A stretch of 64,000 nucleotides of DNA, taken from Verrucomicrobiota bacterium. Lineage in GTDB: Bacteria > Verrucomicrobiota > Verrucomicrobiia > Limisphaerales > UBA9464. The stretch's first letter is position 1. Every line of letters begins with the position of its first letter. The notes beneath the pieces are model-generated. The model was not told the origin of the DNA. It saw nothing but the letters and a program-made list of their open reading frames with translations, and did no database searches. Where the stretch lies: positions 1 through 64,000 of the forward strand of contig CANGKZ010000013.1 of the NCBI GenBank assembly GCA_947454705.1, written 5' to 3'. A program made the position numbers and the translations under genes. Of this stretch, positions 7,486 to 10,004 are shown piece by piece.

Positions 7486-7729
7486 GGTTGAAGAGTTGAA
7501 ATGTTGAAGGGTTGAAGGGGACAGAAGCGCTCTGCTCACACGTATGGAGTACCGCGTTTACGCGGCTCTGCTGTTCGACGGAGAATCCAGTCCGGGGTTG
7601 AATCTCCCTCGGGCTGACCTCCCACGCGCCTCCCCGAACCGTCTGAAGACGAGACTCCAAACCAATGAGAAAACCCTCGCGGTAGCGTCGAATTCCCCTT
7701 CAACGCTTCAACTTTTTAACCCTTCAACC
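7486..7729. repeat. Dispersed intergenic repeat A, copy 1 (GTTGAAG ends)
   Basis: This is a 244-bp element with 35-bp inverted ends (7486-7520 and 7695-7729) that match at 31 of 35 positions. Each end is a run of near-heptamers of the form GTTGAAG. The core contains GTTTACGCGGCT, GAACCGTCTGAAGAC and AGCGTCGAATT, all found again near 56.8 kb. It fills most of the 377-bp gap between the redoxin fusion and the next gene and has no credible coding frame. The rest of the gap holds a promoter with a palindrome (7752-7785). It could be a non-autonomous mobile element or a folded-RNA repeat; neither is shown. Confidence 0.8.
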
Positions 7730-7751
7730 TCCCAGCCCCGCAACCTTCCCT

Positions 7752-7785
7752 TTGACAACGCCCATTCACTTTGCAATACAAAGTG
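7752..7785 (+). promoter_or_regulatory. Promoter with overlapping palindromic operator
   Basis: A TTGACA -35 box (7752-7757) is followed after 17 bp by a weak -10 (AATACA, 7775-7780). A perfect 7-bp inverted repeat, CACTTTG-CAATA-CAAAGTG (7767-7785), covers the spacer end and the -10. Its position would block RNA polymerase if bound. The same core, CTTTG-N5-CAAAG, lies upstream of ispH (8856-8870). The downstream unit encodes a winged-helix regulator, which is the obvious candidate to bind both sites; that link is an inference. Confidence 0.6.
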
Positions 7786-7849
7786 AGTTGCTTCGTGCGG
7801 CCCCGCTTCCGGTTCGGAATGGCCACGCCCGAGCTCCAAAGCGTCATCC

Positions 7850-8482
7850 ATGGACCCCTCCTCCGCCTCCGCGCAGCTTCAGACCATTCGCACCTTGATG
7901 GAGCGTGTGGCCTTGTACCGACGCGCCCTCGTTCCCTGCTGCCTCATTGCCGGAGGGGCCGGCACCGCCGCCGCCACGCTCGGACTCGTCCTGCACTTCT
8001 CCTCGCTCAGTTCGTTTTTGGCGCTCTGGATTTCCACCGCCGCACTCGCGCTGGGTACCGCACTGGCCGTCATCCGGCGCGAAGCCATCCGCGCCGATGA
8101 ACCCTTCTGGACCCCGCCCACCCGGCGGGTCGCCGCGGCCTTCCTTCCTCCCATGGTGGCTGCGATCGTGGCCACGGTCTGGATCGCCCGCATCGGGTCG
8201 CCGGACTCCAGGCTGGTGCCGACGCTTCTGCCATCGGTCTGGATGGCCTGCTACGGACTCGGCCTGCACGCGGCGGGATTCTTCATGCCCCGCGGAATCC
8301 GCTGGCTGGGATGGATCTTCCTCGCTGCCAGCGCCCTGCTTTCTCCGATCCTGGACTGGGCCGCGGTCGAACCCCGGGCCTCGTTTGCCGCGGCAAACCT
8401 CAGCATGGGAATCGCTTTTGGTGCCGGACATCTCGCGTACGGTCTCTACCTCCGCGCCACGGAATCGACCCACACGTCGTGA
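7850..8482 (+). CDS. Small integral membrane protein of unknown function
   Basis: A 210-residue protein with about six hydrophobic segments (for example LVPCCLIAGGAGTAAATLGL, FLALWISTAALALGTALAVI and VAAAFLPPMVAAIVATVWIA). I do not recognise specific catalytic residues. The arrangement of the helices and the companion gene suggest a partner membrane protein of HTH_34-type regulators. Its TGA overlaps the GTG start of the regulator (GTGA), so the two are almost certainly translated together. The pair is preceded by a promoter with a palindromic operator. What it transports or senses cannot be told from sequence. Confidence 0.75.
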   Translation: MDPSSASAQLQTIRTLMERVALYRRALVPCCLIAGGAGTAAATLGLVLHFSSLSSFLALWISTAALALGTALAVIRREAIRADEPFWTPPTRRVAAAFLPPMVAAIVATVWIARIGSPDSRLVPTLLPSVWMACYGLGLHAAGFFMPRGIRWLGWIFLAASALLSPILDWAAVEPRASFAAANLSMGIAFGAGHLAYGLYLRATESTHTS

Positions 8483-8787
8483 AGCCGGACCCGATTTCCC
8501 AACTCGACCGCACCGTCCACGAGAAGGGCCGACTGGCCATTCTCGCGGTCCTGGCGGCGACGGATGAGCTGTCGTTCACCGACCTCAAGGCCGCGGTGTC
8601 CATGACCGACGGCAACCTGACCTCGCACGTCCGCACCCTCCAGGAAGCCGGCTTTCTCGCCGTCACCAAGTCCTTCCGCGACAACCGCCCGCTGACCACC
8701 TGCTCGCTCACCCGGCAGGGACGCGAGGCCTTCGCCCAGCACATCCGCCTCCTCGAGGAAATCGTCCGCCAACACCGTTCCCGCTAG
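8479..8787 (+). CDS. Winged-helix transcriptional regulator (HTH_34 / MarR-like)
   Basis: A compact 102-residue DNA-binding protein. It reads ISQLDRTVHEKGRLAILAVL, then a winged helix: LSFTDLKAAVSMTDGNLTSH holds the recognition helix, followed by VRTLQEAGFLAV and the wing TKSFRDNRPLTTCSLTRQG. This layout matches the HTH_34 group of small regulators, which bind as dimers. There is no ligand domain. It starts at a GTG that overlaps the stop of the membrane protein by four bases. A CTTTG-N5-CAAAG palindrome lies in the promoter of its own unit and another in front of ispH, so autorepression and control of ispH are plausible. Confidence 0.85.
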   Translation: MKPDPISQLDRTVHEKGRLAILAVLAATDELSFTDLKAAVSMTDGNLTSHVRTLQEAGFLAVTKSFRDNRPLTTCSLTRQGREAFAQHIRLLEEIVRQHRSR

Positions 8788-8831
8788 AATTCCGCACTTT
8801 TCTCCTCTCTGGATTTGAACATTTCTCCCAG

Positions 8832-8870
8832 TTGCCACTCTTACGAAACCGCATACTTTGCACTACAAAG
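8832..8870 (+). promoter_or_regulatory. ispH upstream region with CTTTG-N5-CAAAG palindrome
   Basis: The inverted repeat CTTTG-CACTA-CAAAG (8856-8870) ends six bases before the first ATG of ispH. A weak TTGCCA -35-like box lies at 8832-8837, with TACTTT (8854-8859) as a possible -10. The palindrome shares both arms and the TACAAAG flank with the site at 7767-7785, one gene pair upstream. I take it as a second operator for the regulator encoded at 8479. The promoter boxes are poor and only the palindrome is persuasive. Confidence 0.5.
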
Positions 8871-8876
8871 CCTAAC

Positions 8877-9752
8877 ATGATGACTCTTCTTCGCGCGGAG
8901 CATTTGGGAATGTGCTTTGGCGTTCGCGACGCCATCCAGCTCGCCCGCACCGAATCCCTCCAACAGCCGGTCACCGTGCTTGGGGATCTCGTTCACAATC
9001 CAACGGTGCTCGATGACCTTCGCTCCATCGGCACCCGGTTCGAACGCGCCTTGGAATCTGTATCCACCGCCACCGTGATGATCACCGCGCACGGCGCTAG
9101 CGATCGACGACGCGACGAAGTCCGGTCCCGCGGATACCGGTTGCTCGATGCCACCTGCCCCCTGGTCCACGTGGCCCACAAGGCCCTCGCGACCCTCGTC
9201 GCCCAGGGCTACCACCCGGTGGTCATCGGCCAGCGGAACCACACCGAGGTGCAGGGATTGATCGGCGATTTTCCCGAAGCCGATGTGATCCTCTCCGCCG
9301 AAGACATCCAGGCGCTGCAACCCCGCACCAAATTTGGAATCATCAGCCAGACCACCCAGCCCGTCGTCCGGTGCCGCGAACTGGTCGCTGCCGTTCAGGC
9401 GCGGTTCCCGGAATCCGAGGTGAAGTTCCGCAACACCGTCTGCCAGCCCACGCAGCAGCGTCAAAGCGCGGCCGAGCGACTGGCGCAGCGGTGCGACGTC
9501 GTGGTGGTCATCGGCGGCGCGCACAGCAACAACACCCGCGAACTCGTACAGACCTGTCTCCGATCCTGCGACCGGGTGCACCACGTGACCACCGCCGGAG
9601 ATCTGCGTCCCGAGTGGTTTGAGGAAGCCGACACCGTGGGTATCACCGCGGGCACGAGCACGCCGGATTCCACGATCCAAGCGGTCGAGGCTGCCCTCCG
9701 TCGAATTGCCGATTCGGTGCCAGCTGCCCAGCGCATTCCGTCCCCGCACTGA
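8877..9752 (+). CDS. ispH: 4-hydroxy-3-methylbut-2-enyl diphosphate reductase
   Basis: IspH carries out the last step of the MEP isoprenoid pathway, reducing HMBPP to IPP and DMAPP with a 4Fe-4S cluster. The three cluster cysteines are present: C13 in GMCFGV, C94 in DATCPLV and C189 in NTVCQPT. Substrate-binding residues are also in place: H40 (LVHNP), H72 (TAHGAS), H122 and E124 (NHTEVQG), and the IGGAHSNNTREL block. At 291 residues it is near the short end for the family. Either of two adjacent ATGs (8877, 8880) may be used. A palindrome lies just upstream, suggesting control by the winged-helix regulator at 8479. Confidence 0.95.
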   Translation: MMTLLRAEHLGMCFGVRDAIQLARTESLQQPVTVLGDLVHNPTVLDDLRSIGTRFERALESVSTATVMITAHGASDRRRDEVRSRGYRLLDATCPLVHVAHKALATLVAQGYHPVVIGQRNHTEVQGLIGDFPEADVILSAEDIQALQPRTKFGIISQTTQPVVRCRELVAAVQARFPESEVKFRNTVCQPTQQRQSAAERLAQRCDVVVVIGGAHSNNTRELVQTCLRSCDRVHHVTTAGDLRPEWFEEADTVGITAGTSTPDSTIQAVEAALRRIADSVPAAQRIPSPH

Positions 9753-9759
9753 TGAAAGC

Positions 9760-9985
9760 AGTTGAAGGGTTGAAAAGTTGAAGAGTTGAAGGGGACGGCG
9801 AATAAATCGCGATGAGGAGACGCGCGATGACAACCGTCCCTCATTCAAAAACGCCAAAAAACTGACGCTCTCAGCGACGCGGCCGCGACTCCATCCCCGC
9901 GCGACGAGGGTGAGGGTGGGTCGGCGTTGCCGCGCCGCCGTCACTGGATCCCCCTTCAACGCTTCAACTTTTCAACCCTTCAACT
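9760..9985. repeat. Dispersed intergenic repeat A, copy 2
   Basis: This copy has 35-bp inverted ends (9760-9794 and 9951-9985) identical at 34 of 35 positions, better preserved than copy 1. The core is different: it lacks the GTTTACGCGG/CCGTCTGAAG block and holds other sequence, including a CGACGAGGGTGAGGG stretch. So the ends are conserved while the cargo varies. It lies in the 252-bp gap between ispH and the convergent kdpE. Bases 9977-10003 overlap a 24-bp match to the tail of repeat B near 57.15 kb, which suggests nested or joined elements. Confidence 0.75.
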
Positions 9986-10004
9986 GCCGCTTCCAGGTTC
10001 AACC

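Follow-up and report, generated by a model that had tools for sequence, protein, structure and literature searches.

A conserved palindrome links a predicted winged-helix regulator to a second ispH gene in Verrucomicrobiota

The window, the whole 64,000-nucleotide stretch of DNA analysed here, contains a cassette in which a membrane-protein gene, a gene for a small winged-helix regulator and an ispH gene follow one another on the same strand, with one palindrome ahead of the membrane-protein gene and another ahead of ispH (Table 1). The start of the regulator gene overlaps the stop of the membrane-protein gene, and a six-base gap (8871-8876) separates the second palindrome from the ispH ATG at 8877. 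The pattern CTTTGN5CAAAG occurs twice in the window, compared with 0.01 occurrences expected from shuffled sequences, and in the genome of origin (5,446,992 bases) it was found solely at these two places, while the reversed control pattern was found four times. This confirmed the first-pass annotation, which had pointed out two CTTTG-N5-CAAAG palindromes, one at each gene start; they are the only copies in the 5.45-Mb genome. In the window, TTGACA lies 17 bases 5′ of operator 1 and GAAC lies 39 bases 5′ of operator 2, and the distance to the start of the membrane-protein gene is 81 bases. These promoter spacings fit less well than those of the relatives described below. Short repeats resembling GTTGAAGGGTTGAA were seen on both flanks of the cassette (7487-7520, 7700-7730, 9757-9800 and 9960-9990) and are possibly a repeat family of this genome.

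Table 1. Features of the cassette in the window, with predicted functions
Feature	Position	Strand	Remark
Candidate -35 (TTGACA) for the membrane-protein/regulator promoter	7752..7757	+	sequence reading
Putative operator 1, CACTTTGCAATACAAAGTG	7767..7785 (core 7769-7783)	.	palindrome 5′ of the membrane-protein gene
Membrane protein, 210 aa, six predicted helices	7850..8482	+	family without earlier description
HTH_34 winged-helix regulator, GTG start	8479..8787	+	PF13601, E 2.5e-26
Candidate ECF-sigma-like ispH promoter, TTGAACA ... GAAC-N17-CTC	8815..8840	+	sequence reading
Putative operator 2, CTTTGCACTACAAAG	8856..8870	.	palindrome between regulator and ispH
ispH, second (short) copy, 291 aa	8877..9752	+	TIGR00216 above cut-off

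The regulator, a protein of about 100 amino acids, scored 92.1 bits against PF13601 (HTH_34; gathering cut-off, 27), which places it in this family. It scored below the cut-off of an NCBIfam metalloregulator model (32.6 bits; cut-off, 55) and, at 14.3 bits against a cut-off of 100, does not belong to the SdpR family NF033789. The membrane protein gave no Pfam or NCBIfam match, and no match to the SdpI family was obtained with it, nor with 60 orthologues at E 0.1. An AlphaFold2 model of this protein, calculated with a 60-row alignment, consists of six helices with a pLDDT of 90.7. A Foldseek search with the model returned no match at E 0.001 or better, and VIA-align gave Z scores of up to 8.8 against designed bundles and receptors, from which no inference was drawn since the VIA-align notes describe such scores as common for helical bundles. 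That the membrane protein is a sensor or a carrier is a guess.

Homologues of the regulator were collected by protein similarity, independently of the operator, from 50 of 58 relatives, from 64 of 188 genomes of the class and, among 211 relatives in named genomes, from the best 80. The 171 regulator-bearing loci obtained in this way comprised 153 distinct ones, of which 135 encode a regulator at least 50% identical together with a membrane-protein match. Orthologous loci from named genomes belong mostly to bins whose titles give Verrucomicrobia, and several of these are labelled subdivision 3, Limisphaerales or Pedosphaera. Three cassette regulators that are 60-62% identical to that of the window come from entries titled Methylacidimicrobium fagopyrum, Akkermansia muciniphila and Acidobacteria (L127, L155 and L183, respectively); identities of this order also occur among the Verrucomicrobia subdivision 3 bins, and the titles may be wrong.

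Site 1, 5′ of the membrane-protein gene, was present in its strict form in 113 of 132 scorable loci and with at most one mismatch in 121, and site 2, in the gap between regulator and ispH, was strict in 116 of 131 loci and within one mismatch in 129. Both sites were retained at this tolerance in 117 of 129 loci, so that the same site recurs at regulator and target across orthologues, although these loci share kinship and the counts are of non-independent events. Where the regulator is less than 50% identical, site 1 was strict in 13 of 14 loci and site 2 in all nine in which ispH was detected. Across the 135 loci, 234 strict sites fall within the two intervals scored for these positions (44,112 bases in all), compared with 1 in the remaining 788,917 bases, and the extended consensus reads ACTTTG-Y-NNN-R-CAAAGT. 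This 17-base motif gave 32 sites in 35 relatives versus 3 reversed-control matches; the cassette accounts for 27 of the sites and a separated ispH for 1, and the other 4 lie elsewhere. Conservation ahead of the orthologous regulator operon and ispH was the check proposed at first pass for shared control of the pair and ispH, and with this footprinting the reading of the palindromes as operators of a shared regulon is well supported. Inverted repeats that adjoin genes could also be RNA hairpins, terminators or chance repeats, but this is extremely improbable here. The conservation is overwhelming relative to background, no T-run follows the palindromes in the sequences examined, and in 47 of 231 strict sites the inner positions would pair C with A, which is no RNA pair, Y and R being kept separately in each half-site.

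A wider regulon was considered and rejected. The strict short motif occurred 232 times genome-wide in the 58 relatives, compared with 286 times for the reversed control, and in 11 of the HMG-CoA synthase (HMGS) genomes described below CTTTGYNNNRCAAAG occurred 22 times, compared with 20 for the control. As the short motif does not exceed its control genome-wide in the 58 relatives, the regulon looks local, and no wider one is claimed. Clustering of the open reading frames of 57 large loci showed that the three cassette genes alone are common to all; the other families were present in at most 26 of the 57 and pointed to no function.

Both sites are placed on promoter-like motifs. At site 1, TTGAC (at least four of five bases) lies 13 or 12 bases 5′ of the palindrome in 100 of 120 loci, and the start codon follows 22 or 23 bases past the first base of the palindrome in 103 of 121. 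The spacing from TTGAC would put a -10 element over the right arm of the palindrome, and it suggests that site 1 spans the gap between -35 and -10, with transcription starting at or near the membrane-protein ATG. Ahead of site 2, GAAC-N17-GTC was found in 71 of 129 loci, compared with 0 to 5 at other spacers (12 to 22). The [GC]TC form was found in 77 of the 129, compared with 1 of 385 control stretches; it starts 29 bases 5′ of the palindrome in 65 of the 77, and the candidate ispH promoter of the window is of the CTC type. GAAC and GTC elements at a fixed spacing are the consensus of ECF-sigma promoters, and the motif before site 2 has the form of a candidate promoter of this class; no paper on the motif was found in the open-licence literature. 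In two distant members, L074 (2039, 2059) and L078 (1892, 1912), tandem operators 20 bases apart were seen 5′ of the membrane-protein gene.

Since site 2 lies beyond its promoter-like motif and does not cover it, the regulator could activate ispH, or could bind solely for its own control, with the ispH site an inherited by-stander. We regard this as decidedly unlikely. Repression is what would be expected from a site located at the start point or between -35 and -10, and conservation of site 2 is no weaker than that of site 1: in the nine loci in which site 1 has been lost (3 or 4 mismatches), site 2 is still strict in eight. Furthermore, a short ispH that lies on a different contig from the regulator, in G044, still has a strict site, which begins 40 bases before its ATG (L094), and in this genome the regulator's own site is gone (L032/L073).

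Several loci carry the same change at both places. In L016 and L018, which belong to the genus of the window, both sites read CTCTG-N5-CAAAG. In L049, L050 and L053 both places have A-T instead of the inner G-C in one or both of the arms, and only 3 of 153 regulators, namely those of these same three loci, have Gln for His in the recognition helix. The link between this substitution and the change of site is not exclusive, because four regulators that keep His (L043, L046, L147 and L182) also come with an A/T change, confined to one arm of site 2. Each of the concerted changes may be a single event. These parallel changes of sites and recognition helix are indirect signs that one regulator would bind both sites.

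The protein encoded behind site 2 in the window scored 250.3 bits against the IspH/LytB equivalog TIGR00216 (cut-off, 187.85), its nearest solved structures are IspH (3dnf, E 5.5e-55), and it keeps all 11 checked positions, which comprise the three cluster cysteines and active-site residues of IspH. It is predicted to be an HMBPP reductase. The first-pass annotation had treated it as the essential enzyme, which was wrong as put: the genome of origin has two LytB/IspH genes, the short one of the window and a long one on another contig. Among the matches listed, and counted by eye, a long IspH shows in at least 55 of the 58 relatives; seven of these long forms were examined over their whole sequence. 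Judged by strong matches, 47 of these relatives have both the regulator and the short IspH and 9 have neither; in the two discordant ones, G031 and G033, the genes lie at contig ends. In the class sample, a short IspH (E 1e-70 or better) was found in 44 of 188 genomes, all 44 of which have a regulator match, and in none of the 124 genomes without one (Fisher p 1e-27, with kinship ignored); a further 20 genomes have a regulator match without the short IspH. All 11 residues are kept in 132 of 133 distinct short IspH proteins, the last one being clipped by a contig end. As the genome has a long IspH as well, and the short form is tied to the regulator, the ispH of the window is better regarded as an additional copy under control. 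Distant IspH proteins of ten class genomes (32-36% identity, E 1e-31 to 1e-40) were rejected as members of the system and left out of the 44; the corresponding stretches (L244-L253) contained no strict palindrome. As to the essentiality of the two IspH proteins of V. spinosum, the main text of PMC12283558 does not mention ispH, lytB, isoprenoid, the MEP pathway or terpenoid.

In some loci the gene behind the operator encodes a broken IspH or another protein. L079 and L080 have a full-length LytB relative at this position (Pfam E 2.3e-26 and 4.5e-25) that keeps 2 of the 11 checked residues, with none of the three cluster cysteines in L079 and one in L080, and the LytB relatives of L254 and L261 are similarly broken. 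The broken ispH of L254, which has two operators, lies on a different contig from the regulator. A 100-aa remnant matching the last third of LytB follows the operator in L075 and L086, and a 113-aa open reading frame with a weak LytB match (E 1.2e-6, custom profile) follows it in L081. In L072 the gene behind site 2 encodes a DUF4153 membrane protein, and in L082 and L083 a protein without likeness to IspH. Because broken relatives of IspH are kept behind the operator, catalysis may not be the whole role of the controlled gene, and this favours the view that in some lineages the IspH fold serves as a partner. These cases would also be accommodated if the controlled IspH were mainly a sensing partner, for example by binding a precursor or the regulator, and if some lineages had retained catalysis whereas others had lost it. 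As a general account this is rather unlikely, since in the main set the catalytic residues are intact in all but the clipped one of the distinct short IspH proteins.

Several further features of these loci were observed. Tandem operators 57 to 85 bases apart precede the broken ispH of further distant members (L079, L080, L254 and L261). DUF4153 membrane proteins (Pfam E 4e-37 to 6e-49) recur behind the operator, alone in L072 (3030-4712) and after the IspH piece in L075 (3039-4577) and L086 (2781-4307); in L263 the operator (813-827) is followed by a DUF4153 open reading frame (839-2341) and then by an intact short ispH from 2341. Two families of open reading frames, assigned by eye, recur downstream of ispH. 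The first, present in 5 of 57 loci, resembles a B12-type radical SAM protein, and the second, present in 11 of 57, has a length of about 250 aa; example positions are about 1.4 kb (L150) and about 2.2 kb (L170) past the regulator start. Relatives of both seem, again by eye, to lie directly behind operator 2 in L082/L083.

When the genomes of the phylum were searched with a membrane-protein profile, 30 of 288 contained a relative, and 14 of these lie outside the class. Ten of these 14 have an HMGS gene beside the pair of membrane protein and regulator, and four (G257, G294, G351 and G363) do not. In L198, L201, L203, L206 and L212 the order is regulator, then palindrome, then HMGS. The three HMGS proteins scanned (L201, L206 and L212) all exceeded the cut-offs of both PF01154 and PF08540; the other assignments are tblastn-type matches at least 50% identical to L201. 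Among the 30 best HMGS loci, the regulator lies directly upstream of HMGS in 11. A strict operator precedes HMGS in five of these (L214-L218); in L221, L225 and L229 it lies about 1.1 kb farther upstream, ahead of the membrane-protein gene; the operator of L223 has one mismatch, and L219 and L220 have none. None of the 19 HMGS loci without an adjacent regulator has the strict palindrome, and a one-mismatch form occurs in L222 and L238. In G358 a second HMGS copy adjoins the pair, without a strict site, which brings the HMGS-linked pairs to 12 genomes in total, in 8 of which the cluster has a strict operator. In G308, G312 and G413, CTTTGYNNNRCAAAG occurs nowhere in the genome except at the operator ahead of HMGS. 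No LytB gene was found in any of the 12 HMGS-linked genomes by a search that matched twice in the genome of the window. The HMGS-type pairs of G257, G351 and G363 adjoin neither HMGS nor IspH, and in G351 and G363 IspH is on another contig; in L262, L088 and L091, HMGS-side pairs lie near a short ispH with no operator within one mismatch. A tree of the regulators (53 rows of about 100 aa) separates IspH-type from HMGS-type sequences by a moderately supported branch (88/81); since its root is arbitrary and long branches meet, no order of target switches is claimed.

The common thread of the IspH and HMGS linkages is isoprenoid-precursor synthesis. As related pairs stand beside HMGS in genomes without IspH, control of isoprenoid-precursor supply is the best functional reading, and the isoprenoid-related role suggested at first pass has thereby gained independent support. 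The same observation bears on a reading of the regulator as a redox or iron-sulfur isozyme switch, by which the short IspH would take over from the long one in response to oxygen, iron or oxidative stress, with no sensing of isoprenoids. IspH contains an oxygen-sensitive cluster, ECF promoters, which the candidate ispH promoter resembles, are often a stress class, and the genome of the window has two types of IspH, all of which would suit such a switch. However, the same operator and related pairs are found at HMGS, which has no iron-sulfur cluster, in genomes that lack IspH, and the regulator falls short of a metalloregulator-level match; we therefore consider the isozyme switch unlikely, if not negligibly so.

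Collectively, these findings suggest that the cassette probably forms a local regulon that controls itself as well as the supply of isoprenoid precursors. The HTH_34 protein would bind ACTTTG-Y-NNN-R-CAAAGT as a dimer. At site 1 its occupancy would block the promoter of its own operon, that of membrane protein and regulator, and at site 2 it would block a separate promoter for the second, short IspH. The most likely role of the membrane protein is that of a sensor of the state of the membrane or of isoprenoids, which would release the repressor and raise the second IspH when the long IspH is insufficient; the ECF-type promoter at ispH may add a stress input. Several observations speak against this regulon. 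The strict operator is missing at 4 of the 12 HMGS clusters (those of L219, L220, L223 and G358), the pairs of G257, G351 and G363 have neither an adjacent HMGS nor an adjacent IspH, and the pairs of L262, L088 and L091 near short ispH have no operator within one mismatch. Furthermore, a pure flux role leaves the broken IspH under the operator unexplained, and the gene behind site 2 in L072, L082 and L083 is not IspH-like.

The finding is sound and goes beyond what was first stated, with part of it reinterpreted: it amounts to a probable local regulon, conserved among relatives, whose target belongs to a new class. To our knowledge, few dedicated transcription factors are known for bacterial isoprenoid-precursor synthesis. 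In the open-licence literature, with most subscription papers outside the scope of the search, nothing was found on this system (ispH operators, HMGS regulators or MEP regulons), and no dedicated transcription factor for IspH or HMGS was found there. An operator that follows the pathway, MEP or mevalonate, would, if true, open a direct way to study how isoprenoid demand is sensed in bacteria, and the regulon would explain why a second IspH is retained in these genomes. The system would also offer an operator-regulator pair with natural specificity variants, and the presence of broken IspH relatives behind the same operator raises the question of a non-enzymatic role of the IspH fold. More tentatively, and with somewhat less than an even chance of being right, the cassette could be a pathway-independent isoprenoid homeostasis switch of Verrucomicrobiota, in which a six-helix sensor, a winged-helix repressor and one type of operator act at a second IspH in MEP lineages or at HMGS in mevalonate lineages with a logic like that of SREBP, some controlled IspH proteins being catalytically dead and acting as sensing partners.

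SREBP controls sterol synthesis in animals. If the membrane protein is a sensor, the cassette would resemble it in exerting membrane-linked feedback on a precursor enzyme such as HMGS; no homology to SREBP is claimed. Among solved chains, the nearest to the regulator is PH1061 of Pyrococcus (1ub9), although at an E value of just 1.2e-5; it is likewise an HTH_34 protein of about 100 aa with the same domain and no extra ligand domain. No paper on HTH_34 or PF13601 was found in the open-licence literature, and thus there is no operator or target of this family for comparison. In SdpI/SdpR of Bacillus subtilis, a membrane protein sequesters an autorepressor. As in that system, the membrane-protein gene here shares an operon with the gene of a small winged-helix protein, and this small protein is predicted to repress the operon; in contrast to that system, the two proteins fall outside the SdpI and SdpR families, and the additional target is an isoprenoid gene. 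By analogy, the pair of the cassette may work like SdpI/SdpR without belonging to it. Two IspH homologues in one genome are also found in Mycobacterium tuberculosis, where, according to the abstract of PMC4550268, just one of LytB1 and LytB2 is essential and the dispensable homologue has all known critical residues. Unlike in M. tuberculosis, for which that abstract reports no cognate regulator, the second copy here is tied to a regulator and an operator.
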